Part shown: positions 6,684 through 20,003 of the stretch, in pieces
Numbering within the stretch: position 1 is the first letter of the stretch
Layout of the letters: each line of letters starts with the position of its first letter
IMG/VR virus record: IMGVR_UViG_3300011116_000009
Location: 1 to 21,084 of that record
DNA from: a virus
DNA: 21,084 nucleotides
Strand: one strand, 5' to 3'
The notes under the pieces: generated by a model
Told to the model about the DNA's origin: nothing
What the model saw: the letters and a program-made list of their open reading frames with translations, nothing else
The model's database searches: none
Position numbers and translations under genes: made by a program

Positions 6684-8642
6684 TTAACCAAATGGTTTGC
6701 CAAAGAACCCGCCACCGGCGGCTGCGCCCGCTGCGCCAGCAAGACCGCCGAGCAAGCCCATTTTGGCGTTGTAAGCAGCGGTTTGGTTGGCGTAGTTACG
6801 TTGTGCAAAGTCGCCCGCCGCCTGCGTTCCCGCAAAAATGGGGGCCGCTGCGACGTTTGCGCCTTGGTAGCCTTGGAACTGCGGCATATTGACCTGTACG
6901 CCCGACATCAGGGCGGCGATCTCGTTGAGCGGCTGATTGCGTAGCGCCAGCTGCTGCTGCAAACTCTGCTGCAACGCGGTGTTGCCAAACTGAGCGCCTT
7001 GCAGGGCTTGGTTGTACCGCTGCAGCTGCGCGGCGTTTGCCAACTGCTGCTGTTGGGTCGCAATGGCCTGATTCTGTGCAAGGGCTGCATTGCGTGCGGC
7101 CTCCACATCCATTGCCTGACCAAACTGTTGCGCCTGACCGCCAAGCAATGCCCGGTAAGCCTCTAGCGCGTTAGCGTTAGCGATCTGAGCCACATCACGC
7201 TGCTCGCCAAACTGTTGAGCGCGAATGCGGGCGGCAAGGTCTGCAGCGGCTTGCTGCTCACCAAACGCTTGACCGCGTGCGGCGTTAGCAAGTTGTGCGC
7301 CCGTGACATCTGCGCCAAACATGGCCTGTCGTGCTTCGTTGCCGAACTGGCCTGCTGCGACACGCTGCCGGAAGTCTTGCTCTTGTGCGGCGTTGCGGGC
7401 GGCCTGTGCGCCAAGTGCCGTGCCGACCGCCTGTGTACCCATGCCAAACTGCCCGAGGGCCGCTTGGTTAGCAAACTGTGCGGCAGCCTGCTGCTCGCCA
7501 AAGCCCTGCGCCCGAGCCGCCATATCTAGCCGTAAGCCCTCTAAGGCCGCCTGCTGGATGGCATCGTTCTCTTGCTGCTGCTGTTCGGTGATTGCCTCGT
7601 TGTAGGCTTCCGAGCCACGCGGGATGCCTTGGTTAGCCAGCTGCGTTTCTAACGCTTGGCGACGGCGCTGCAGTTCTGGGGCGACACGCGAAAGGATCGC
7701 CTGCTGGCCCGTCGTGCCTGCCTGTACCGGCATGGCGGCAAGCTGGCTGGTATCAATCGTGCGTTGCAGCTGCTCCTCGGGAATAAACCCTCGGGAGAGG
7801 CCGTACATTCCAAGATTCGGCGCGTAACTTACATCCTGAACGCCCGCAAGATTGAGGTCAGCCTGTTGCTGTAACGGCGATACGCCCGCCTGCAGCCCCG
7901 GCAATGCGCCTAAATCTAAACCTCGGAACTGCTCTAGCCCCGTTGGGGCAAACTCACGCATGGAAAGCGTCGGCATTGCGCCCGCACGAACATCGGCGGT
8001 AGCGCGGCCCATGCCCGCAAGGTCAGGAGCGCCCTGTACTTCGCCGTAACCGCCAAGCGTCGTCTGTAGGTCGCGCAAGTTAGGGGCAAATCGCTTGCCC
8101 AACACATCCTGCACCGTGCCGAGAGCGGTTTCGCCCACGCCTGACAAACCCAATTCTACGCGCTGCTGGGCTTCTAAAATCTTCTGTTGTTCAGGCGACA
8201 GGTACTGCTCAATATAGGGCGTATCCTGATCCGTCTGCGTGGTGAACTGTTCGCGGGTTGGGGCTACCGGCGCAGCACCAAACTGACCACCATACGCACC
8301 CATCGGAAAATTGCCACCGCGACCCTCGCCACGGCCTTCAAAGTCGCCGTAATAGTCGCCACCGGGGAAACCGCCTGCAGGGCCGCCTGCCATCACGCCA
8401 GAAGCTTTGCGGGCCTCATAGTCGGCAAGCTGCTTGTTATAGGCTTCCATCGCCTTGTTGTAGCCCGCTTCATCAAACACGCTCTTGCCAAACGTGACGC
8501 GCTGGCCGCCATAAGGCGTGGAAATGTTGGGATTGGAGATGCGGGCGGTTAGACGCGCCGCCTCCAGATTGGCCGCGCCCTGCTCTTTTGCCGCTGCGGC
8601 GTAGTCAGGCGCTGGCGGTGGTTTCGGTGAACTTTTGCCCAT
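6684..8642 (-). CDS. Internal virion (ejection) protein with Ala/Gln-rich periodic helix
   Basis: The 652-residue product begins with a conserved MGKSSPKPPPAPDYAAAA opening common to podovirus-like internal virion proteins. Residues 85-125 are a Gly-rich disordered stretch, 150-345 are helical, 370-560 form an Ala/Gln-rich region in which Phe-Gly steps recur at multiples of about nine residues, and the last 25 residues are a small-residue hydrophobic tail (GLLGGLAGAAGAAAGGG) that may insert in membranes. This is the composition expected of proteins that build the trans-envelope DNA channel. A GGAG at 8650-8653 lies seven bases before the ATG. The start lies 38 bases inside the GNAT gene, so translation is probably coupled. 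No enzymatic motif is present. Confidence 0.75.
   Translation of the reverse strand: MGKSSPKPPPAPDYAAAAKEQGAANLEAARLTARISNPNISTPYGGQRVTFGKSVFDEAGYNKAMEAYNKQLADYEARKASGVMAGGPAGGFPGGDYYGDFEGRGEGRGGNFPMGAYGGQFGAAPVAPTREQFTTQTDQDTPYIEQYLSPEQQKILEAQQRVELGLSGVGETALGTVQDVLGKRFAPNLRDLQTTLGGYGEVQGAPDLAGMGRATADVRAGAMPTLSMREFAPTGLEQFRGLDLGALPGLQAGVSPLQQQADLNLAGVQDVSYAPNLGMYGLSRGFIPEEQLQRTIDTSQLAAMPVQAGTTGQQAILSRVAPELQRRRQALETQLANQGIPRGSEAYNEAITEQQQQENDAIQQAALEGLRLDMAARAQGFGEQQAAAQFANQAALGQFGMGTQAVGTALGAQAARNAAQEQDFRQRVAAGQFGNEARQAMFGADVTGAQLANAARGQAFGEQQAAADLAARIRAQQFGEQRDVAQIANANALEAYRALLGGQAQQFGQAMDVEAARNAALAQNQAIATQQQQLANAAQLQRYNQALQGAQFGNTALQQSLQQQLALRNQPLNEIAALMSGVQVNMPQFQGYQGANVAAAPIFAGTQAAGDFAQRNYANQTAAYNAKMGLLGGLAGAAGAAAGGGFFGKPFG
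6987..7502 (-). repeat. 9/18-residue Phe-Gly/Ala/Gln repeat in an ejection protein
   Basis: Within residues 381-552 of the 652-residue protein Phe recurs at 381, 390, 399, 424, 433, 442, 460, 478, 507 and 552, mostly in QFG or FGE contexts followed by Ala/Gln-rich spacers (for example FGEQQAAAQFANQAALGQ and FGEQQAAADLAARIRAQQ). Most steps are 9, 18 or 45 residues. An 18-residue step is five turns of an alpha helix, so Phe would lie along one stripe. Confidence 0.65.
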
Positions 8643-9048
8643 ACCGAGGCTCCAGATAACGACACGAAGCTCGTGTCATAGTTAAAAACACGATGTCCCC
8701 GTTGGTGTCGGCGTCTTTTATACGCGCTTCCTCGGTAAACCCCATTTTACGCACTAATTTCAAGGCTTTCACGTTTTTACTGCCTACGGGGGCAATAATT
8801 TTGTCAACTCCGCAGACATTGAACGGATAGTCATAGATGGCAGCAAGGTAAGCGGGCGTCAGCCGATCCTGAAACGCGATATGGCACACGATGCTGCGCC
8901 CGTTCCAGTTTTCGTACACCACGCCGCATACCAGTTCGTCGTTTTTTTTCAGGCCAAGAGCGTTTGACCGTTCGGCGTGATAACCGCCCCCGGTCTGCGC
9001 GCAAACCCATTCGCCCACTTCGGGGCCGCTTGTTATATGCCAGCCCAT
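8605..9048 (-). CDS. GNAT-fold protein in the virion gene cluster
   Basis: This 147-residue protein resembles phage GNAT-family proteins found next to tail genes, including the T7 gp13-type internal virion protein group. The start MGWHITSG, the GVVYENWNGRSIVCHIA strand pair (42-58) and the IIAPVGSKNVKALKLVRKMGF segment (84-104) are the family's usual blocks. A canonical acetyl-CoA loop (Q/R-x-x-G-x-G/A) is not seen, so enzymatic activity is doubtful and a structural or assembly role is equally likely. It starts 16 bases inside the nozzle gene and ends 38 bases inside the next gene, unusually long overlaps for this cluster. No strong ribosome binding site precedes the start, consistent with coupling. 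Confidence 0.8.
   Translation of the reverse strand: MGWHITSGPEVGEWVCAQTGGGYHAERSNALGLKKNDELVCGVVYENWNGRSIVCHIAFQDRLTPAYLAAIYDYPFNVCGVDKIIAPVGSKNVKALKLVRKMGFTEEARIKDADTNGDIVFLTMTRASCRYLEPRYGQKFTETTASA
8661..8677 (-). promoter_or_regulatory. 7-bp perfect hairpin just upstream of an ejection gene ribosome binding site
   Basis: GACACGA at 8661-8667 pairs perfectly with TCGTGTC at 8671-8677 around a three-base loop. On the transcript it lies inside the end of the GNAT gene and ends seven bases before the GGAG that serves the 652-residue protein. No U-tract follows, so it is not a terminator; an RNA element affecting translation or processing is possible but unproven. Confidence 0.3.
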
Positions 9049-10595
9049 CCGAGTTGGTACACGATGTCAGTAGAGGCCCATTGAATCTGTAAATATCGGC
9101 TGCTGCTATTGAGCTGCACCGCCGCGCAATAACCAATACCAGTCACGCCCTGCCAGTTGTTGTTGATAACTTCGCTTGATCCCCAGTTAGAGGTATCCCA
9201 CGTTGCCGTATCCCAAAGGCCATACGTTGAGGGGGTATAGGCAAGCGCCGCCGTACTAGCAGACAGGTCAAAGTCTACGTTAATGTCTATGTTGATCGCG
9301 GGCTGGCCGTTACTGAAGATGCCGGGGCGGGCGCGGGTAAAATACTTTTTGACGCCTCGCGTTTCAAAGTAGTTAAACGCCTGCAGGATACGGCCAGAAA
9401 TGTTGTTCGTATCGTCAATATATCCCGAGGTGCCGGTTGTCCACGCCTCTGCGACATATTGGTTGCCGCCGAAGTAAAGTTCATCGTTAAGGATGCTGAA
9501 GCAGTTGGCATTCCAATCGGTAAACCGACACCACGCCTTCGTGATGTTGTTCATCACAAACTGCTCTTGTGCGCCGGTGCTGACTGGCACGTTGACCACT
9601 AGCGCATTGTTGAGCGCGTTGTAGACCATGCCCCAGCCAAAGTTGTTTTTATAGTTCTGTGCGGCGGTCGCAAACGCACCCTGTATCTTGTCTGACAGCG
9701 CGACGTTGGGATCAAGGCGCGAGGACTGCAGCGCCGAAGCCAGCGGAAACAGCCCGTCAAGCGTTAGCACCAAGAGGTCGCCGCCGTATTTCATCATGCA
9801 ACGCTTGGTAAGCGGCGCACCAATCTGCCACACACCAATTAGCGCCCATGTAGAGGCGCTAGAAGGGTCGGTGCCGCGATAAACGATGACCTCACCCTTA
9901 TTCGTAATGAATACAAGGTTGTCGTCAACACCGTAACCTGCGTCAATCGTCCATGTGCCGAGCGCAACAAGGTTGCCACCCCATCTGGCAACTGCGGACA
10001 GGTCAAGCTCTTGCGCTGCGCCACCCACGGCAAGCGTCGGCAAATACCACGCCTTTAGCGTGTCTTTCTGGATAAACCACAGCCGGTTCTTGAAAAGCGT
10101 GATGTTGGAGAGCGTTGTGGTCGTGACGCCTGTGATGGCGGGTGTAGATGCACCGTCAATCGCTGTCCATGTTGTGCCGTTGTAAAGCTGCGGCTTATCT
10201 GTGCCGTTTACGCACATCATGTAATTGCCGCCGGGGGTCGTGATGTTGACGTATTCCCACCGAGCGTTACTTAATCCGCTGACAACCGCCGCGCCCACGG
10301 CACCGGCTGACGTTACGTCATAAAACCCTGATCCCGACGCCGCAAACAATTTGTTGGTGGCACCGCCTGCATAAGCAAACAGGCTTTCTACTTGCCCCGG
10401 CAACCCCGTGGCGTGCTTGCTATACCCGCCTCGCAGATTGACGCTGGCAACGCCGGGGAAAAAGTTATCCAGCGTGACCGCATCAGTCGGGGCCATGTTG
10501 GCAAGCGAGTCGCGGGCGTTCCACCCGCCGACAGGCGCGGGCAAAGACGCCACGTTGGCGTTGTTGCGCTGAACAAGCCTGCGAGCCGCTGCCAT
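9033..10595 (-). CDS. Tail nozzle / tail stabilisation protein (P22 gp10-like, beta-rich)
   Basis: A 520-residue, strongly beta-rich protein. After a short basic start, residues 17-60 hold the conserved block PAPVGGWNARDSLANM ... DAVTLDNFFPG ... VNLRGGYSKHATG typical of the phage nozzle family. Repeating strand-rich segments with Trp/Tyr/Gly follow (FAYAGG, NYMMCVNGTDKPQLYNG, FKNRLWFIQKDT, VFITNKGEVIVYRG, RCMMKYGGDLLVLTLDG), which fits a propeller-like fold. It would form the tip of the short tail below the adaptor. It starts with a TAATG overlap from the adaptor gene, the order seen in P22/SU10-like virions. No signal peptide or enzyme motif is present. Confidence 0.85.
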   Translation of the reverse strand: MAAARRLVQRNNANVASLPAPVGGWNARDSLANMAPTDAVTLDNFFPGVASVNLRGGYSKHATGLPGQVESLFAYAGGATNKLFAASGSGFYDVTSAGAVGAAVVSGLSNARWEYVNITTPGGNYMMCVNGTDKPQLYNGTTWTAIDGASTPAITGVTTTTLSNITLFKNRLWFIQKDTLKAWYLPTLAVGGAAQELDLSAVARWGGNLVALGTWTIDAGYGVDDNLVFITNKGEVIVYRGTDPSSASTWALIGVWQIGAPLTKRCMMKYGGDLLVLTLDGLFPLASALQSSRLDPNVALSDKIQGAFATAAQNYKNNFGWGMVYNALNNALVVNVPVSTGAQEQFVMNNITKAWCRFTDWNANCFSILNDELYFGGNQYVAEAWTTGTSGYIDDTNNISGRILQAFNYFETRGVKKYFTRARPGIFSNGQPAINIDINVDFDLSASTAALAYTPSTYGLWDTATWDTSNWGSSEVINNNWQGVTGIGYCAAVQLNSSSRYLQIQWASTDIVYQLGWAGI

Positions 10596-11512
10596 TACTG
10601 GCTCTCCGTCCCGTAACCGCTGTCAGGGATGTTGTCGTAGCCGATCAACACCGTACCCGGTCGCGGCGCAAACGAGAGGTTAGCGCCTGCCGTATCCTGC
10701 GCGATGGCGGTTTCCAGTTCCTGCAGGTAATCGCGGTAAATGGCCGTCGTGTCAAAACCCTTGCCTTCAAAATACTTGAGCTTGGTGGACAGCACCATGA
10801 CCCGATCTGGATAGATGCAGGTATCGCTATCGGCGGTAAACGAGGACTTGGAGGTGCCGTCAGCGGCGTTTGCCCAGTTCTTGCTGCGGTATTCAAAGCC
10901 GAGGAGTTCCCCAGCATTCATACCCGGCCAAATCTGGAAGTACGCACCGAGCAGACGCCAGCGGATACGCGGGCCGGTAGAGATATAGCCTGAGAGCAGC
11001 CATTCCCATTGCTGCGGCGACTCGGGGCCAAGCATTTCCCAACGCTTGCTCTTATCCCAATGCGTGCGGTTGACCGTGCTGTAGTAGTCAGACGGAAGGT
11101 TGTATTTAACCTTCTGGAAAATCAGCTGGCCGCCCACCTGCGCTTGAGTTGGCTCATAGTTGAGCGTGACCTGCGTGGCACTATCCACGCTGGTGATATA
11201 GGTCGCGTTCGGAATTCCAACGCCCTGCACCTGATACGCCGTAGACAGCCCCGCCGTAGAAGGGATGCCGGTGATCGTATAGGCCGTTGTCGTCCACGTT
11301 CCCGTGGTCGTGGTGGCCTCGGTGTAAAACGTATGCTGGCGGGTGAGTTCCCGCCAGTCCGCACGACGCATCAACTCATAACCCGAGGCGTTCATCAGAG
11401 CCAGAAGCTGCACAACGTCCTGACTCGTATTGCCCGCAACGGTTGCCGGGGTTGCTATGCCCAACTCATTTGTCACTTGCTGAATGAGTTGAAGCATCGT
11501 GGTTGTGGACAT
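10595..11512 (-). CDS. Head-tail adaptor protein (P22 gp4 / SU10 adaptor-like)
   Basis: The 305-residue protein has a helical N-terminal domain (MLQLIQQVTNELGI, LLALMNASGYELMRRADW) followed by an inserted Thr/Gly beta-rich domain (about residues 60-130) and a C-terminal helical part with DRVMVLSTKLKYFEGKGFD and DYLQELETAIAQD. This layout is characteristic of phage adaptor proteins that attach under the portal and bind the nozzle. Position confirms it: the nozzle gene follows immediately (TAATG). GAGGGA seven bases before the ATG is a good ribosome binding site, just overlapping the end of the previous gene. It is longer than P22 gp4 because of the beta insertion, which is usual in SU10-like members. 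Confidence 0.82.
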   Translation of the reverse strand: MSTTTMLQLIQQVTNELGIATPATVAGNTSQDVVQLLALMNASGYELMRRADWRELTRQHTFYTEATTTTGTWTTTAYTITGIPSTAGLSTAYQVQGVGIPNATYITSVDSATQVTLNYEPTQAQVGGQLIFQKVKYNLPSDYYSTVNRTHWDKSKRWEMLGPESPQQWEWLLSGYISTGPRIRWRLLGAYFQIWPGMNAGELLGFEYRSKNWANAADGTSKSSFTADSDTCIYPDRVMVLSTKLKYFEGKGFDTTAIYRDYLQELETAIAQDTAGANLSFAPRPGTVLIGYDNIPDSGYGTESQ

Positions 11513-11515
11513 AAT

Positions 11516-12076
11516 TTATCCCTCGGTTATAACTTCTTTAGGCGGTCGGCCCCGACGCTTCGGTTCGCCCGCCTTTTCGCCAAGAAGCTGCGCCATCTGC
11601 GCCTGCAACTCGGCCAACTGTTTCTTGGTGTCCTCTAGCTCGGCGCTAGAGTCTGAGCGGTTTTTGCGGTTGAGGTACTGACGTGCCTTTTCGCGCAAGC
11701 CTACCCCGCCCATGCCGACGCGCTGCAACTGACTATCAGAGGCCAGCGCCAGCTGCTCCACCGTCATAAACTTCAAAATACCCAACTCGGCTACCTGATC
11801 GCGGTTGATTTCTTCAGGATAATCGCGGTGCCATTGAGCGAGCGGTATGCCAATCTGTGACGCAGAACCCTCGTTCTCCTGCATCTGAAAGTAGAGCCAT
11901 TGGCGCGGGAAACGCTGCCGGTGATCCTCTCGGGCAGGCTGGTCAATAATGTTCGTCTTATCGCCGGGGGCCATAATGCGAACATACGGCTTACCCTCGT
12001 TTGCGCCTGAGTCTTTGGTGTAAAACTCAACGTGCAACTGAGCGTCGGCGTTGTTGATGTCACTATCTAGGGCCAT
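11516..12076 (-). CDS. Conserved virion-cluster protein with HhH-like segment and AT-hook-like tail
   Basis: The 186-residue product starts MALDSDINNADAQLHVEFYT and carries a PYVRIMAPGDKTNI block (30-43) that I recognise from a widespread phage protein of unknown function. Residues 95-135 (ELGILKFMTVEQLALAS, then LQRVGMGGVGLREKARQYL) look like a helix-hairpin-helix: two helices around a Gly-rich turn. Residues 142-168 are a coiled coil, and residues 173-180 (KRRGRPPK) contain the RGRP core of an AT-hook. DNA contact is therefore an inference. An upstream in-frame ATG at 12112 is rejected because AGGAG at 12084-12088 lies seven bases before the ATG at 12076 and the earlier start overlaps the previous gene. 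It precedes the adaptor gene by three bases. Confidence 0.78.
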   Translation of the reverse strand: MALDSDINNADAQLHVEFYTKDSGANEGKPYVRIMAPGDKTNIIDQPAREDHRQRFPRQWLYFQMQENEGSASQIGIPLAQWHRDYPEEINRDQVAELGILKFMTVEQLALASDSQLQRVGMGGVGLREKARQYLNRKNRSDSSAELEDTKKQLAELQAQMAQLLGEKAGEPKRRGRPPKEVITEG

Positions 12077-12082
12077 TTCCTT

Positions 12083-12110
12083 TCTCCTGTGGGGATTGGG
12101 GTAATTAAAC
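12083..12110 (-). repeat. 28-base repeat, copy 1 (before the AT-hook protein gene)
   Basis: 26 of 28 bases match 15746-15773 in the same orientation. This copy spans the stop codon of the 120-residue gene and the AGGAG of the next gene. Confidence 0.75.
12084..12088 (-). promoter_or_regulatory. Shine-Dalgarno site fixing the start at 12076
   Basis: AGGAG seven bases before the ATG selects the 186-residue product rather than the 198-residue reading. The site lies inside a 28-base sequence that is also found before the scaffold gene. Confidence 0.7.
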
Positions 12111-12467
12111 ACGCTCGCCGTTAAGCGAGTACCAAGCGGTATTACTTACGGCAAAAAAAATACTAGCATGATTGACAGCAATGCTTGCTGACGCCCCGCC
12201 ATTTAGCGTTGACCCAGAGGGCGGGTACACCGTTAGGGTATGCGCTCCGCTGTTTGCAATCATTATCGTTGCACCCATTTCCGTTGTCGGCAGTTTTACG
12301 CCGGTATTTGGCGGTGTTGTGTCCACCGAATTGTAAACGTGGGTAAGTTGCAACGCATTTCCCGCGCTAGTTCCAACAGCAACTAAATCATCAGCACCGT
12401 CTCCACAAATAGAAACAGTTGATAGCTGGCTGATGCCGCTACCCAAGACTCGGGACGGGATCGCCAT
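12105..12467 (-). CDS. Small beta-rich virion-cluster protein
   Basis: A 120-residue protein of strand-forming, Thr/Ser/Gly-rich sequence with blocks TGVKLPTTEMGATIMIANSGAH (about 56-77), TLTVYPPSGSTLNGG (about 78-92) and a hydrophobic strand ending in Trp. I recognise this as a common small phage protein found among head and fibre genes; its exact role is unsettled, with decoration or fibre-associated subunit the usual guess. It overlaps the preceding DUF115-like gene by TAATG. Its stop falls in the 28-base repeat before the next gene. A run of eight T on the coding strand (12153-12160) is a potential slippage site but the zero frame is intact. Confidence 0.7.
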   Translation of the reverse strand: MAIPSRVLGSGISQLSTVSICGDGADDLVAVGTSAGNALQLTHVYNSVDTTPPNTGVKLPTTEMGATIMIANSGAHTLTVYPPSGSTLNGGASASIAVNHASIFFAVSNTAWYSLNGERV

Positions 12468-13243
12468 TACGCCGCCTCGGCGCGTTCAGTCCTTACGCGC
12501 ATGATTTCTGCGATCAGCCCCGGCCCTTTAACGTCAAGCGTTACATCGGGCATAACCTCAAAAATCTTCTGAAATTCGTTGGCCTGCTGGGCCATTGCCA
12601 TGTTGCAGTTGAACTTCTTACCCGTTGGGCCGCCTACCCAAACGTCTACCGATGGGCCAGTTGTCTCGCCCGTGAATCGCTTAAGGCCGTCTGCGCGATT
12701 GCAAGAGTCGTAGCCGTAAAGCGTGAAATTGCGAAACCCGAGGATATAGCCGATGTTGATGGCACGCAGACCCGAGGTCGTGCCGCCACCGATGGCTAAC
12801 TTGTTTGGCCCCAGCGCCTCCATTTCTGCACCCGGCGCCCATGAGTGCCACAGCAACACCTTTCTGTCCTTGAGATGGTCAAAGGTGGAGGGCGGGCAGC
12901 GCGAGGCGGGCATATAAGTCGTGTAATCGTTTAGCCGCTGGATACCGCTAGTGCGGTCGCGGGGGTCAAGGTTGACCCACAGATCAGGCTCCACGCCGTT
13001 TGCTACGAGGTAGTCGTGCGTGGCCTTGATGCTGACAATCGGTCGCCCTGCCTTGCGGTGGGCTTTAATCTCATCAATGTAGTCAGGCATAGACCACCCG
13101 CTCGCCACCAACACCATGTTGCCATCGTGCTTGGTGGGAGCGAGGGTCAGTTCTGGCAGACCACGGGCCAGCGCCGAGCGGATGTTGGAACATAGTTCCT
13201 CCTCCGTCCCTGCCGCCTGTACCGTGATCTCCAGAGGCTGCAT
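12467..13243 (-). CDS. DUF115 / MptE-like Rossmann-fold protein in the head cluster
   Basis: The 258-residue protein has the order of conserved blocks seen in the DUF115 (6-hydroxymethylpterin pyrophosphokinase MptE-like) family: a nucleotide-binding-type strand and loop VLVASGWSMPDY (44-55, in place of the usual GPSL motif), a second strand IVSIKATHDYLVANGVEPD (69-87), the WVNLDPRD acidic motif (89-96), a Gly/Thr loop GGGTTSGLRAINIGYILGF (152-170) and a strand ending LYGYDS (175-180). Relatives are linked to nucleotide-sugar or pterin diphosphate chemistry and flagellin glycosylation, so modification of a sugar or virion component is possible. An ATG 45 bases upstream would overlap the previous gene heavily; the ATG at 13243 forms a TAATG junction like its neighbours and is chosen. 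Substrate unknown. Confidence 0.75.
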   Translation of the reverse strand: MQPLEITVQAAGTEEELCSNIRSALARGLPELTLAPTKHDGNMVLVASGWSMPDYIDEIKAHRKAGRPIVSIKATHDYLVANGVEPDLWVNLDPRDRTSGIQRLNDYTTYMPASRCPPSTFDHLKDRKVLLWHSWAPGAEMEALGPNKLAIGGGTTSGLRAINIGYILGFRNFTLYGYDSCNRADGLKRFTGETTGPSVDVWVGGPTGKKFNCNMAMAQQANEFQKIFEVMPDVTLDVKGPGLIAEIMRVRTERAEAA

Positions 13244-13716
13244 TAGGCGTTCAAGCCCGTCAGAACGTGCGGGTAACCCGCAACGCAAGTCGGAGCCGAG
13301 GCCGATGCCGCCGAGGTAGTTGCCACAAGGCCCGCCACCAAACCCGCCGTCACGGTGGCGTCGTCAAGCGAGCCAGCCGTTGAGGTGGTGAAGAGCGGGA
13401 CGTTGGGCTGACACCCGATCAGCACGTTGACACGCGGCTTACCGCCCAACTGCACCCAGCCATAATACGCCGAGGCAATGGAGGCCTGAGCAAAGCCAAT
13501 GGCCTTGCTGTTAGCCGAGTTGGTCGTGGTGAGCGGAACAACGGTGTTATCCACACGGACGGAAACCGCCATGTAGGTAGACACCGTGGAGGCCGCCTGC
13601 ACATAGACCGCCTGACCGCCATCGCTCAGGTTGACGACCGTGCCGGTACCAAACGAGGGCGAGCTGTCGGTGTAATCAAGCGCCACACCGATCAATGCGC
13701 TAGTAGAGATAGACAT
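13243..13716 (-). CDS. Probable capsid decoration protein
   Basis: A 157-residue beta-rich protein directly after the major capsid gene, the usual site of decoration or head-stabilising proteins. Blocks such as GTVVNLSDGGQAVYVQAASTV (about 24-44), AIGFAQASIASAYYGWVQLGG (about 72-92) and a final Ala/Ser/Thr-rich strand region resemble short capsid proteins of the DUF2190-like type. It has no catalytic motif, signal peptide or membrane segment. AAGGGGG about nine bases upstream is a strong ribosome binding site, in line with high expression, and the gene begins 12 bases after the capsid stop. A fibre-like head appendage is an alternative. Confidence 0.7.
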   Translation of the reverse strand: MSISTSALIGVALDYTDSSPSFGTGTVVNLSDGGQAVYVQAASTVSTYMAVSVRVDNTVVPLTTTNSANSKAIGFAQASIASAYYGWVQLGGKPRVNVLIGCQPNVPLFTTSTAGSLDDATVTAGLVAGLVATTSAASASAPTCVAGYPHVLTGLNA

Positions 13717-13728
13717 TTCTATGCCCCC

Positions 13729-14748
13729 TTAAGCAATCAACACGCCTTGGAACTGGCTGCCCGAGCAGGTCAAGTTACCTGCCCAGCCAATCAGCTTCAC
13801 AATGGCGTCTTGGTTGACCGCCTGACGCTCACCGCCAATCGGCACAAAGTTGCGATCCTTGTGCGGACGGAACATCAGGTACTTGGTGTTCAGGAACCAC
13901 ATATGGTTTGCGTTGCCCGAACCGCTGTTGTAGGTGGACGAACCGATACCACCGTCCAGCACCACGTCAGAGGCCATGCCTGCGCCGTAATACTTGAGGG
14001 AGGCAAAGCCCGCGCCCGCCATGCCCGAGCCAGCGTCGGTAATACGCTGGATGGCCTGCAGCGACTGCAGATACAACTTGTAGTAGTTGTTGTCCGCAAC
14101 GATGAGGTCAGGCTTGTCGGTGCCACGAATCAGCTGAACCGCGAGCGCGTCCATGTAGCCCTGAATGTTCGTGGCCGAGACAGCCGCGAGGCCATCGGTC
14201 AAACCACTATATTTCTTGGACTGCCAGAACGTCCACACGGCGCGGTTGATGCCGCCGTAGGTGCCAGTCGTCGGGTCATCCGGCACAGCCGCAGCAAGGC
14301 CCGTGAGGTTCTTGCCCGCGTTGCCGGTGCCGTCACCGTACAGGTCGCCGCTGATGCGGTTGGCAAGCTGCGCTTCCGCAACTTCCATGCGACCGTCAAG
14401 AAGGTCAATGATGGCCTCCTTGCCCGTGTTCTGGATCATCTCCAGACCCGAGATGGTCACCGCACTTGCGTACTGCGTGATGGAGAACTGCGCCGAGCTG
14501 ATCGGGCTGTTCTGACCGACGTTCAGCACCTCGTAACCCGAGTAGCTGTTCGTGTTGTTCGTGGTCGGATCAGTGTACATGATTTCCTGCAAAATCACGT
14601 TACCGCCCGAGAACGTCTTGACGTTCCCACGCTCCTTAAGACGACGCAACAACGCATTGTTGTTGGTCACGTTGTCAGCGAGCTCACCGCTACGGCTCTG
14701 GATGGTAGTAGCGATGATGTCGCTGATACTAGAGTTGGCAAAAGCCAT
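13729..14748 (-). CDS. Major capsid protein (HK97-like fold)
   Basis: The 339-residue protein forms the capsid shell. It opens with MAFANSSISDIIATTIQSRSGELADNV and contains the coat-like blocks LLRRLKERGNVKTFSGG (33-49), VTISGLEMIQNTGKEAIIDLLDGR (about 97-120), AQLANRISGDLYGDGTG (about 125-141) and a C-terminal HMWFLNTKYLMFRPHKDRNF (about 278-297), a set I recognise from the capsid proteins of many podovirus-like phages. It is preceded by the scaffold gene, has AGGAGA six bases before its ATG, and is not extended by a protease or delta domain, consistent with a separate scaffold. Length is normal. A longer-than-usual 23-base gap precedes it. Confidence 0.9.
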   Translation of the reverse strand: MAFANSSISDIIATTIQSRSGELADNVTNNNALLRRLKERGNVKTFSGGNVILQEIMYTDPTTNNTNSYSGYEVLNVGQNSPISSAQFSITQYASAVTISGLEMIQNTGKEAIIDLLDGRMEVAEAQLANRISGDLYGDGTGNAGKNLTGLAAAVPDDPTTGTYGGINRAVWTFWQSKKYSGLTDGLAAVSATNIQGYMDALAVQLIRGTDKPDLIVADNNYYKLYLQSLQAIQRITDAGSGMAGAGFASLKYYGAGMASDVVLDGGIGSSTYNSGSGNANHMWFLNTKYLMFRPHKDRNFVPIGGERQAVNQDAIVKLIGWAGNLTCSGSQFQGVLIA

Positions 14749-14771: not shown

Positions 14772-15740
14772 TTATAACCGGGCGTTTGCTTCTTCAAATG
14801 CTTGCTCAAGCAAAGTCCGGCGGTCATTCGCTTTAGGAGCCGTGTTAGCACCGGGTGTGGCGCTTCTGACACTCACAGCAGCGGCCCGAGCGGCTTTCGC
14901 TGCTCGGTTTTTCTCTGCGGAAACTTGTGCGCTTTGTTTAGCCTGTTGGGCCGACAAAATGCGTTCCCGCAAATCTTTATTTCCATAGACGGCCTTATCA
15001 TACGCCTCCTCCAATGTTTCGGCGCTACCGCCTTGGAGGAGCTTGATCATTTCGGGGCGTACTTCCTCAAAATGCTCGGCCTTCTGGGCAAAATCTTCAA
15101 TTTCGTTCAGCAGCACGGCCTGTTCGGCCTGCTCTTGCTGCTGTTTCCAAGTCATGACCTCACCACGCACGTTTGCCAGCTCGTTTTTAAGGGCAAAAAT
15201 GGCGGGGTCAGCGGTCGGTGTGCCGGTTTGCGGCATACCGCCTAAATTGATGCCGTATTCGTTCGCCAACTGCATGAAATACTGTTGGCGGGTCTGCGGA
15301 TCGCTAGTTCGCAGCGTGTGATCGGCCTTCATCAGCGCGGCAATGGCCTGCTCGGGCTTAAGTCCAAGGCCGTTTAACGTGCTGATGTACGGATTGATCG
15401 CCTCGTTGATGGCGTCGGCAAACTGTTTGGCCTGTAGCAGCGGTTCCACGCCCCGGCGCATCTGCTCCTCGCGCTGGTAGGCGTACTCCTGCAGCCGAGG
15501 GTCGGCTTTCTGCCAGACTTCGTGATAATCCTTCTTCCAAGAGAGCGGTGGCCGCTTCCAAACGGGTTCTTCAGCAGGCTCTGGGGCTTCTTCCTGCGGT
15601 TCGGGCTTGGCAAAACGCCCTTGCGCGTCACGGCCAGCGTCTGCAGGCTCGTTATTCTCTACCGCGTCAAAGCCCTGCTCCAGAACGGCCCGTCGGTCGG
15701 TGGTATCAACCTCTGGGGTGTCAACGGTTTGGTCGGTCAT
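14772..15740 (-). CDS. Scaffolding protein
   Basis: A 322-residue, highly charged, largely helical protein immediately before the major capsid gene. The N-terminal 60 residues are acidic and disordered (Glu/Pro-rich), followed by a PPLSWKKDYHEVWQKADPRLQ motif (about 64-84) often seen in phage scaffolds, a helical core to about residue 260 and an Ala/Lys/Arg-rich linker. It should drive procapsid assembly and leave before packaging. Remarkably, a DRR-x-(V/L)LEQ-x-F motif occurs at residues 15-24 and again at 306-315, i.e. at both ends. The start overlaps the previous stop (TAATG), and its ribosome binding site lies in a 28-base repeat. No protease motif is seen. Confidence 0.88.
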   Translation of the reverse strand: MTDQTVDTPEVDTTDRRAVLEQGFDAVENNEPADAGRDAQGRFAKPEPQEEAPEPAEEPVWKRPPLSWKKDYHEVWQKADPRLQEYAYQREEQMRRGVEPLLQAKQFADAINEAINPYISTLNGLGLKPEQAIAALMKADHTLRTSDPQTRQQYFMQLANEYGINLGGMPQTGTPTADPAIFALKNELANVRGEVMTWKQQQEQAEQAVLLNEIEDFAQKAEHFEEVRPEMIKLLQGGSAETLEEAYDKAVYGNKDLRERILSAQQAKQSAQVSAEKNRAAKAARAAAVSVRSATPGANTAPKANDRRTLLEQAFEEANARL

Positions 15741-16790: not shown

Positions 16791-16926
16791 TGCTTTGCTC
16801 CTTCAAGGCTTCTTCAGCCTGCTCTTTGATCTTGACCAACAACGGCCACGCGCCGCTGCTCGTCGGAAGTTGTCCTAATACTTGCAGGATGGCCTGCACT
16901 TCTTCGGGAGTGAGTTCTAGTTTCAT
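16783..16926 (-). CDS. 47-residue small phage protein
   Basis: A 47-codon frame starting with ATG that overlaps the fibre stop as ATGA and ending eight bases inside the next gene. The sequence begins MKLELTPEEVQAILQVLGQL and continues with a short Ser/Gly turn and a Lys/Glu-rich helix (KIKEQAEEALKEQ). This two-helix pattern matches short phage proteins of unknown function that I have seen beside tail or head genes. It is below the usual gene-calling length. The frame, the overlaps on both sides and the family-like sequence support it. A GGAG at about 16934-16937 lies within the fibre end as a ribosome binding site. Confidence 0.65.
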   Translation of the reverse strand: MKLELTPEEVQAILQVLGQLPTSSGAWPLLVKIKEQAEEALKEQSNG

Positions 16927-19900
16927 TTTGCCTCCAATGCGGCGACCTTGGCTTCAAGTTCTTGAATGGCCTTCACAAGCAGCGCGACCATGTTTCCGTA
17001 ATGCAACGCATCTGGTCGTCCTTCCTTGTCGTAAGCCACAAACTCGGTCAGTCCTGCGTCGTGGACTTCTTCGGCAATCAAACCGCCGAATACCGTGTCT
17101 CCGCTGTTTTTTGCTTTGTATGTAACGCTGCGAAGTTTGAGGACATCCGCAAGGCCATGTGCTGCATCGGCTACGTCTGACTTGTAACGCAACGACGAAG
17201 TTGAACGATATAGCAAACCGCCAGCATCAACATACAAATTTGCTGCGTTACCCGTTGTATAACTGTATGGGGAATTAGCGGCATTACCAATCATCATCAA
17301 TCCGTCATTTCTGACGTAAAACAAATTTGCTGCCGCTCCTGCATTTTCAACCACTAACGCATAATTTGCGCTTGTCGTGGTTGAACCTTGAACGTGTAAT
17401 CGGTAGATAGGCGTTCGGCCAACTCCAACGTCGCCAGCAAAATAATTCGCCGCCGTCCCCGCTGCATAGAAGTTCCAGCGGTTTGTGCCAGAGGCGATGG
17501 CGCTGTAGAAGCCGTAGTTGTTGGTGGCTCCGGTGAGGCTCCCGTCAACATAGTAGCCGTGTTGATTAGTAATAGACGAACCTGCACCAATACTGTTTTG
17601 ATATGCAAAATAATGGGTGTAATTTGAAAGCGTATAGGATGCGGCTTGCGTAAACAGGTTCGTCGCAAAAGCATAAGTCGTATTAGTTGTTGAACTAGGA
17701 GAAATCCCAGTCATGTAATACCCGATACTAATTGTGCTCGCCGTCACCAGCGTTCCTTTGACGTGAACTTTTGCAAACGCATCCGCCGTCCCGCCAATCC
17801 CGACGTTGCCGCTGGTGTCAATCCGCATACGCTCGGCGTTGTTGGAGTAAAACGCCATTGGATGATTTGACGTTGTACCGACCGTTCCGTTTGCAGAACT
17901 TGTGTTGTACAAAATCGTCGTAACGGTGCCGTCCGTTACAGAGATGCCTTGATTGGTTGCGGAAGATATGGCTAATTTCGTTCCCGGCGACGCAGTACCA
18001 ATACCGACGTTGCCGCTGGAGTCAATAATTGCCCGCAGCGTATTATTGGTTGAAAAGCCAATCGGGTGAGTGCTAACTGTAATTAAATTTAAACTGTTGT
18101 TACCCGCATAAGATCCTTGTGCAGACCCGTTGCGGAAAATACCGGCGTTTGCATCGCCAAGTTGGATGGTGCTGTACCCGTCAGTTGCGGTGTTGGTAAT
18201 TCGCAACGCAAGGTTATTCGCGGCTGCGGTTCCGTAAATTTCTGTCTTTGTAGCAGGCGACGCAGTACCAATCCCGAGATTCCCCGACGTATCCAGCCGC
18301 ATACGCTCGCTGCCGCCGGTATAGAAGGTCATCGGCAGGTAGGTGCCGGTGCCTGCTGCGTTTGAACGCAACGACGCTTCTAAATTTTTGAAAACAAACA
18401 TTGACATCGTTTGAGTGTTTGTCGTGTCGCTTACAGCGTTACAAACCACCCCAGTTCCTGCTAAATCAGCAGGGGTTCCATTTGCCAATATGCCAAGAAT
18501 TGTGTTTCCGTTTGTCGTGCTGCTTTGAAACGCCAACCGACTGCTAAACGTCGCATTGGACATATCGCCCGTGATGCGCTGGGCGGTGGACGAGAAGGTG
18601 AGGTTGCCGGTCGTCACCGTCGCCGTGCCTGCATTCAGCGAGGCGATAGAGGCGTTGGTAACCGTGAGTCCCGTGACCACCGCCGTACCGACGTTAGCCG
18701 AGGCGACAGAGGCTCCCGTAGCCGTCAGCGCGGTGACCGTTCCCGTCGTAATCAGCGCGACCGCTGCGTTGATGGAGGCGACCGAGGCATTGGTCACGGA
18801 TAGGTTGGTCACGCGCTCTGTGGTCGTAACGACATTGCCAAAGTTAGCGGAAGCGACTGATGCGCCTGTAACCGTTAAGGCCGTGATAACAGCCGTTCCT
18901 GCGTTTGCCGACGCAATGGAAGCGCCAGTAACCGTCGCTGCGGTGATGACCGCCGTGCCGACATTGGCAGAGGCAATAGATGCCCCGGTTGCCGTCAGGT
19001 TGGTGATTACCGCCACGCCCGCGTTGATGCTGGCGATAGAGGCTGCCGTGAACTGAAGGTTGCCAATGTTCGCGGACGCGATGGATGCGCCCGTGGCCGT
19101 CAGGTTTGTCACCGTGGCCGTAGTAAGCAACGCCACGCTTGCGTTCATAGACGCGATGGAGGCGCTCGTTGCCGACAGGTTAGTGATCACCGCAACGCCT
19201 GCGTTAATAGACGCAATGGACGCTGCCGTAAACTGCAAATTGCCGATGTTGGCCGACGCGATGCTTGCGCCCGTAGCGTTAAGCGTTGTCACCGTCGCAG
19301 AGGTCAGCAAGGCCACGCCTGCGTTTACGGAGGTCAGCGATGCGCCAGAGGCTACCAGCGTCGTGAATGCACCCGAGGAAGGGTTTGTTACACCCACCGT
19401 TGTGCCATTAACGCTGCCGCCTGTGATAGCGACATTGTTGGCGTTTTGCGTGGACATCGTGCCGAGGCCCGAAATGTCCGTGCTAGGAATAGTGGAAACC
19501 GCCGTGAACGCTGCCGTGCCAGAGGCTTTAACGTAACCCGTTAAGGTCGTCGCGCCTGTACCGCCATTGCCAACAGGTAATGTCCCCGTGACGCCTGTAG
19601 TAAGCGGCAGTCCCGTGGCGTTTGTCAGGATCGCGGCAACGGGTGTACCGAGGTTTGCGCTGACAAGCGTTTTGCCAGTCAGCGTTTGCGGGGTATCCAG
19701 CGTGACGGCCTTCTCAGCTGGGTACGCTACGAATACGTCCTTGCTACCTGCTACAAACCCAACCTTTGTACCGCCATCGCTGGAGGCCAATACGGTATCG
19801 CGGGTCAGCGTTCCCGCGTTGTAGGTGCCGATGCCGACTTCCCACGCGCCTGTGGTGTTATCCACCGCCGTGTAATAGGTCTCGTTACCATTACCAATGA

Positions 19901-20003
19901 CAGAAAACGGCACAAACCCGGTGGACGTGCCGTTTAGAGTGAACGTCCCAGTACCAACCGTAGTCGTCGTTTCTTTAACGCGATCCTGTAAAACCAATGC
20001 CAT
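16923..20003 (-). CDS. Long tail fibre with repeat shaft and C-terminal S74 chaperone
   Basis: The 1026-residue protein has a conserved N-terminal domain (1-100: ALVLQDRVKETTTTVGTGT, VIGNGNETYY, WEVGIGTYNAGTLTRDTVLASS, DVFVAYPAEKAV) that probably attaches it to the virion. A link region (100-219) with GLPLTTGVTG and LPVGNGGTG follows, then a repeat shaft (220-465), then beta-rich units marked by SGN(V/L)GIG at 573, 663 and 731. Residues 936-1026 are an S74 intramolecular chaperone: Ser936 and Lys941 five apart in SSLRYK, LRSVTYKAK, GGLIAEEV and a terminal coiled coil. It should form a trimer and self-cleave. It starts three bases after the portal stop, an unusual site for a fibre. Regions near 17281-17340 and 18370-18530 are A+T-richer than the shaft. 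Confidence 0.9.
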   Translation of the reverse strand: MALVLQDRVKETTTTVGTGTFTLNGTSTGFVPFSVIGNGNETYYTAVDNTTGAWEVGIGTYNAGTLTRDTVLASSDGGTKVGFVAGSKDVFVAYPAEKAVTLDTPQTLTGKTLVSANLGTPVAAILTNATGLPLTTGVTGTLPVGNGGTGATTLTGYVKASGTAAFTAVSTIPSTDISGLGTMSTQNANNVAITGGSVNGTTVGVTNPSSGAFTTLVASGASLTSVNAGVALLTSATVTTLNATGASIASANIGNLQFTAASIASINAGVAVITNLSATSASIASMNASVALLTTATVTNLTATGASIASANIGNLQFTAASIASINAGVAVITNLTATGASIASANVGTAVITAATVTGASIASANAGTAVITALTVTGASVASANFGNVVTTTERVTNLSVTNASVASINAAVALITTGTVTALTATGASVASANVGTAVVTGLTVTNASIASLNAGTATVTTGNLTFSSTAQRITGDMSNATFSSRLAFQSSTTNGNTILGILANGTPADLAGTGVVCNAVSDTTNTQTMSMFVFKNLEASLRSNAAGTGTYLPMTFYTGGSERMRLDTSGNLGIGTASPATKTEIYGTAAANNLALRITNTATDGYSTIQLGDANAGIFRNGSAQGSYAGNNSLNLITVSTHPIGFSTNNTLRAIIDSSGNVGIGTASPGTKLAISSATNQGISVTDGTVTTILYNTSSANGTVGTTSNHPMAFYSNNAERMRIDTSGNVGIGGTADAFAKVHVKGTLVTASTISIGYYMTGISPSSTTNTTYAFATNLFTQAASYTLSNYTHYFAYQNSIGAGSSITNQHGYYVDGSLTGATNNYGFYSAIASGTNRWNFYAAGTAANYFAGDVGVGRTPIYRLHVQGSTTTSANYALVVENAGAAANLFYVRNDGLMMIGNAANSPYSYTTGNAANLYVDAGGLLYRSTSSLRYKSDVADAAHGLADVLKLRSVTYKAKNSGDTVFGGLIAEEVHDAGLTEFVAYDKEGRPDALHYGNMVALLVKAIQELEAKVAALEAK
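18609..19346 (-). repeat. Twelve-unit fibre shaft repeat (ASIASxNxG)
   Basis: Residues 220-465 of the 1026-residue fibre hold twelve copies of a (G/A/N/S)AS(I/V/L)(A/T)S-x-N-x-(G/A/S) core. Start-to-start distances are 25, 16, 20, 25, 16, 20, 20, 20, 25, 25 and 20 residues. The order 25-16-20 occurs twice, giving a 61-residue higher-order unit. Spacers are Thr/Val/Leu-rich, which predicts a beta-structured trimeric shaft. Confidence 0.85.

Follow-up and report, generated by a model that had tools for sequence, protein, structure and literature searches.

The gene on the minus strand at positions 12467 to 13243 of the analysed window (the whole stretch of DNA studied, an IMG/VR virus record of 21,084 bases) encodes an MptE-like protein of 258 amino acids. 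Its best family reading is a stand-alone glycosyltransferase of the Maf type with a GT42/GT29-like Rossmann fold, the enzymatic activity being predicted from the modelled structure. From fold and genomic context, the protein may act as a glycosyltransferase of virion proteins, a reading to which we assign a probability of about one half. It is based on the Maf-type fold, the constant place of the gene beside decoration genes, the fusion of related proteins to glycosyltransferase-like domains, and the presence of sugar-modifying neighbours.

Myxococcus phage Mx8 has a major capsid protein 54% identical to that of the window; Stenotrophomonas phage BUCT555 and Bradyrhizobium phage ppBjS10J-1 have similar ones. 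The gene order of the structural operon is that of Mx8 (portal, small gene, scaffold, major capsid protein, the virion structural protein p49, p50, p51, p52, and an N-acyltransferase). Between the decoration gene, which is p49-like, and p50 lie the MptE-like gene and a gene termed o120; this site is referred to here as the slot. Counterparts of these two genes were not detected at this site in the six cultured relatives examined; in BUCT555, genes for a holin and an endolysin are located at this point. The genes concerned are the following:

14772 to 15740, minus strand: scaffold-like protein, so assigned only because it lies where Mx8 has p47
13729 to 14748, minus strand: major capsid protein (phrog_9953, E 7e-105), upstream edge of the slot
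13243 to 13716, minus strand: decoration-like virion protein of 157 amino acids (Ser/Thr 24%), TAATG overlap with the MptE-like gene, candidate substrate
12467 to 13243, minus strand: MptE/Maf-like protein of 258 amino acids with a glycosyltransferase-fold domain; altered loop SGWSMP at residues 48 to 53, LDPR at 92 to 95, GGGTTSG at 152 to 158, YGYDS at 176 to 180, and K188, a His in most relatives
12105 to 12467, minus strand: o120, a Ser/Thr-rich (23%) protein of 120 amino acids, candidate virion protein and substrate
11516 to 12112, minus strand: p50-like protein, homologue of Mx8 p50 (phrog_20268), downstream edge of the slot
10595 to 11512, minus strand: p51-like tail/adaptor protein (phrog_6013)
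9033 to 10595, minus strand: p52-like tail stabilisation/tubular protein

An earlier note on this DNA had described the MptE-like gene as embedded between decoration and adaptor genes. The upstream neighbour is decoration-like by weak profile matches only (PHROG 29386, E 0.004; Mx8 p49, E 4.6e-8). The downstream neighbour is not an adaptor gene but o120, after which the p50-like gene and then the p51-like tail/adaptor gene are located. After p52, a gene for a GNAT-like N-acyltransferase was found at the same place in the window (8605 to 9048, minus strand, phrog_4470), as well as in Mx8, BUCT555, the Bradyrhizobium and Rhizobium phages, and most loci examined. A Ser/Thr-rich repeat protein of 1026 amino acids (16923 to 20003, minus strand; repeats like ASIASANVG) has an end resembling an S74-type chaperone; its gene is located in the portal/scaffold interval, which would be unusual for a fibre.

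The open reading frame starts with an ATG at 13243, and its stop codon ends at 12467. The coordinates given earlier were exact, and the strand, which had been left unstated, is the minus strand, as for the whole structural operon. The four sequence blocks quoted before (VLVASGWSMPDY, WVNLDPRD, GGGTTSGLRAINIG, and LYGYDS) occur in the same order in this frame, and the TAATG stop/start overlap is present with both the preceding and the following gene. The median dN/dS of about 0.11 (131 relatives) indicates strong purifying selection; the value equals that of p51 (0.11), and the decoration gene has a higher one (0.19). The Pfam score, hundreds of relatives in IMG/VR, and purifying selection confirm that the open reading frame is real and beyond chance.

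The Pfam profile PF01973 (MptE-like) matched residues 20 to 183 with 48.1 bits, above the curated cut-off of 34.6 (E 1.5e-12), which bears out the assignment to DUF115. No match was obtained in NCBIfam, nor among 38,880 PHROGs at E 0.1; the related protein of locus L242 and the MptE-like part of that of L158 also had no PHROG match at E 0.01. A structure model built from 71 aligned relatives (pLDDT 95.2, pTM 0.92) displayed the expected Rossmann-type fold, with matches to Maf, HPPK, and sialyltransferases. The top match was the Maf flagellin glycosyltransferase of Magnetospirillum (PDB 5mu5; Z 21.6, 2.6 Å over 216 residues), followed by the archaeal HPPK/MptE of M. jannaschii (8sd5; Z 15.4, 3.2 Å over 191 residues). 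Further scores were 11.2 for SteA, 9.1 for GT29, 9.0 for the GT42/Pasteurella sialyltransferase, and 8.3 for CstII with CMP-3FNeuAc. The likeness to MptE and to CstII-like transferases suspected beforehand was therefore found, both scoring below Maf. The family profile gave the same ranking (Maf, E 1.4e-15 vs. MptE/HPPK, E 1.2e-4). In a first model derived from only 20 close sequences (pLDDT 75), Maf and HPPK were tied at Z 17.4; this model was replaced by that of the deeper alignment, in which the two separated. A Foldseek comparison with viral models returned MptE-like proteins of uncultured phages (best 39% identity), so the phage family is already annotated by this name.

Close relatives (79–100% identity) were found at about 130 loci in IMG/VR. 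Among the matches listed, the loci of this clade share the order decoration gene, MptE-like gene, o120, and p50 wherever the flanks are present. For divergent relatives, two degenerate DNA-pattern searches covering the GG..G..A...G...GYD region were used, which are blind to genomic context. They yielded at least about 125 loci with true MptE-like open reading frames, most of them 22–35% identical to the query; because the pattern was seeded from the family of the window protein, it would overlook more distant members of DUF115 at other places in phage genomes. Nearly all divergent relatives occupy this slot, with the decoration gene on one side and the p50/neck genes of an Mx8-like podovirus on the other. 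Among the matches listed, 78 of the 84 divergent loci with at least 2.5 kb of downstream sequence have a p50, p51, or p52 homologue at a distance of up to 3 kb, and MCP or decoration profiles recognised a capsid or decoration gene in 38 of the 68 loci with 2 kb upstream; some of the remaining 30 contain open reading frames of about 340 amino acids there. In the GTDB genomes, an alignment search gave no relatives; the degenerate pattern revealed six true members, each in this slot on a phage-like contig, with no member outside it. The constant location next to capsid genes, which the earlier note had raised as a question, applies to the clade, the divergent loci, and the GTDB members. L285 and L299, two contigs from a Euryarchaeota MAG in GTDB, seem to derive from the same phage as L242 from IMG/VR and therefore likely represent a mis-binned virus.

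Capsid-based surveys of IMG/VR rank contigs by closeness to one query, so that the frequencies do not carry over to the group as a whole; among the best matches listed, an MptE-like gene was present in the slot of 0 out of 66 contigs nearest Mx8 and of 10 out of 75 nearest another lineage. Where the gene is absent, the slot is short or filled by structural-looking proteins. Because the slot mostly lacks the gene in these surveys, it is considered accessory in the wider group and fixed in the window clade. Two MptE-like genes, in most cases with p50 between them, were observed in six loci (L178, L211, L225, L245, L255, and L279), and MptE-like genes in tandem in L158. The diverged pairs flanking p50 in L178, L225, L245, and L279 suggest a duplication with division of labour.

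Separate sugar-modifying genes were detected in the slot of 49 out of 95 MptE-positive loci and of 0 out of 131 negative loci; the loci are related and not independent, and the contrast is partly circular because the sugar-gene exemplars were taken from MptE-positive loci, including the one drawn from the capsid survey. The slots contain, for example, a sugar-type C-methyltransferase (L249; Methyltransf_13 with Methyltransf_14, E 3e-38), a glycosyltransferase of family 8 (L175; E 1e-7), and a radical SAM protein with SPASM (L242). FkbM methyltransferases (E 6.5e-14 and 1e-14) are encoded in L446 (E 1e-14) and, as a fusion, in L264, and a GT2-like fusion (weak match) occurs in L249. In L458, L446, L264, L184, and L171, the MptE-like part is fused to an N-terminal domain matching glycogenin and Skp1 galactosyltransferase (E 5e-5 to 1e-2), both of which modify proteins. 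The slot of the window clade contains no other transferase gene. In the clade genome G003, a GT8-like gene (phrog_28018; L281:9533-10189) is located far from the slot, and a second transferase-like open reading frame was observed at L281:10870-11607.

In the proposed mechanism, the MptE-like protein would be made together with the products of the capsid decoration genes by coupled translation. Most likely, it would transfer an activated sugar made by the host onto Ser or Thr residues of a virion surface protein, with the decoration protein (13243 to 13716), o120, or the major capsid protein as candidate acceptors. The transfer might take place before or during assembly, much as flagellin subunits receive nonulosonic acids from Maf while still in the cytoplasm. 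The other transferases and methyltransferases in the slot of many relatives could extend or methylate the glycan, and the window clade would retain the MptE-like protein as the sole transferase of the slot. A more far-reaching version is put forward tentatively, as a possibility that we hold to be clearly below even odds: the slot might be a dedicated glycan-writing island of the Mx8-like podoviruses, a large group with hardly any cultured members. Its hallmark would be a new protein-priming Maf-like family, extended in many lineages by fused or adjoining GT8, GT2, FkbM, and sugar C-methyltransferase genes, and the window clade would represent the smallest version, a single gene whose donor site has been rebuilt (GWS/Lys) for a different donor.

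Regarding the candidate substrates, o120 is the gene immediately after the MptE-like one in numerous loci that are not related to each other (L152, L166, L178, L225, L245, L279, and L298). It also occurs in slots without an MptE-like gene (L441, L443, and L454) and was thus ruled out as an obligate partner. The Ser/Thr excess in decoration proteins is small (19.6% vs. 17.5%); as a substrate test it was dropped, being too small and not independent.

The window clade differs from its relatives at two conserved positions. In 86 non-redundant relatives, residue 50 is a Pro in 88%, residue 93 an Asp in 96%, and residue 188 a His in 81% of the sequences. In the clade, Trp50 was found in 81 out of 81 sequences and Lys188 is invariant. 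The loop change from GPS to GWS (SGWSMP), which had been spotted in the single sequence, is real and clade-specific, since the nearest relatives (42–53% identity) retain GPS or GPT while the clade has Trp50 throughout. As the clade replaces both the Pro of the GPS loop and the conserved His (P50W and H188K), the two exchanges may reflect an altered donor or a loss of catalysis. A loss would turn the Maf-like domain of the clade into a pseudoenzyme serving as a component of the virion or its assembly, e.g., as a chaperone or a minor capsid-neck protein, which is conceivable, though we regard it as unlikely. The fixation of both exchanges, the absence of another transferase from the clade's slot, the tight coupling to structural genes, and the structural-looking proteins in the slot of many relatives without an MptE-like gene are in accordance with such a repurposed role. 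However, the window protein keeps many of the fold's other Gly, Asp, and His positions, and its gene is under selection equal in strength to that on p51. A Lys or Arg near residue 188 is also found in the nearest relatives of the clade (L179, L261, L215/L259, L238, L177, and L242), mostly with a glycosyltransferase-like, methyltransferase, or C-methyltransferase gene adjoining. Because these relatives combine the GPS-type loop and Lys with such neighbours, Lys188 alone is no mark of lost function.

Alternatively, the protein might be a glycosyltransferase with a target outside the virion, for example a polysaccharide or lipid of the host surface (superinfection exclusion) or modified DNA, with the slot as a site for late-expressed cargo. 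Holin and endolysin genes at this site in BUCT555, the patchy distribution in the capsid surveys (0/66 and 10/75 among the matches listed), and the further GT8-like gene of G003 far from the slot are compatible with this explanation. In contrast, a cargo gene that moves freely would not be expected to keep so constant a position, several relatives have one copy on each side of p50, and expression together with late structural genes would be a poor time to alter host receptors; we consider this explanation somewhat less probable still than a pseudoenzyme. A pyrophosphokinase for pterins or other nucleotides, as implied by the Pfam name and in line with the Pfam match and the Z score of M. jannaschii HPPK, is highly improbable and was rejected as the main role, because Maf is closer by profile and fold, the metal-binding SDLDG stretch of HPPK is replaced by NLDPR in the window protein and by LD[AP][RK] in relatives, and inspection by eye of the window and of G003 showed no pterin genes.

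The preferred reading, glycosylation of virion proteins, would mean that a widespread group of uncultured podoviruses carries a conserved family of virion-glycosylation enzymes beside its capsid genes, and would link flagellin glycosylation enzymes to virus capsids. To our knowledge, few cultured phages have been demonstrated to possess glycosylated virions. A tblastn search with the window protein and three divergent relatives against 50,697 phage records gave no match at E 1e-5, so that at the sensitivity used the family is missing from these records as well as from the PHROGs. No functional report on DUF115/MptE-like proteins in phages was found in our literature searches. Taken together, the data suggest that uncultured Mx8-like phages provide their virions with a sugar coat by means of a gene set that collections of cultured phages lack. 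With a one-gene system in the window clade and multi-gene systems in L242, L238, and L175, donor, acceptor, and biological role are directly testable.

Among the known systems, archaeal MptE, a 6-hydroxymethyl-7,8-dihydropterin pyrophosphokinase (8sd5), belongs to the same Pfam family and has the same fold, but its SDLDG stretch is replaced in the window protein, the match by sequence profile is poor, and no pterin context was noticed around the phage gene. The GT42 and GT29 sialyltransferases (CstII 1ro7, Pasteurella 9c08, and mammalian 2wnb) may have the core fold in common, with low similarity (Z about 7–9, 8–12% identity, rmsd about 4 Å). The mycobacteriophages Che8, Corndog, and Myrna also encode their own transferases, which are proposed to glycosylate capsid and tail proteins (PMC12363180); they belong to a different phage group, and in the present case glycosylation is predicted from fold and gene context. 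The closest counterpart is Maf, whose PF01973 domain resembles the sialyltransferase CstII and which O-glycosylates flagellin at Ser/Thr (PMC11339370). Its central domain (MAF_flag10/PF01973; 5mu5) is the best match of the window protein in both fold and family profile, the GPS-type loop is shared by most phage relatives, and in both cases the gene lies beside that of the presumed surface-protein substrate. In contrast to Maf with its N- and C-terminal domains (PMC11339370), the window protein is a single domain of 258 amino acids. The GPS feature of the 5mu5 loop (VGSGPSIDD) has no match in the SGWSMP of the window clade, and the His after the G-x-D motif of 5mu5 (DLGSRNPKRHH) is Lys188 in the clade. 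Maf genes adjoin flagellin genes, whereas the MptE-like genes of the phages adjoin capsid genes.
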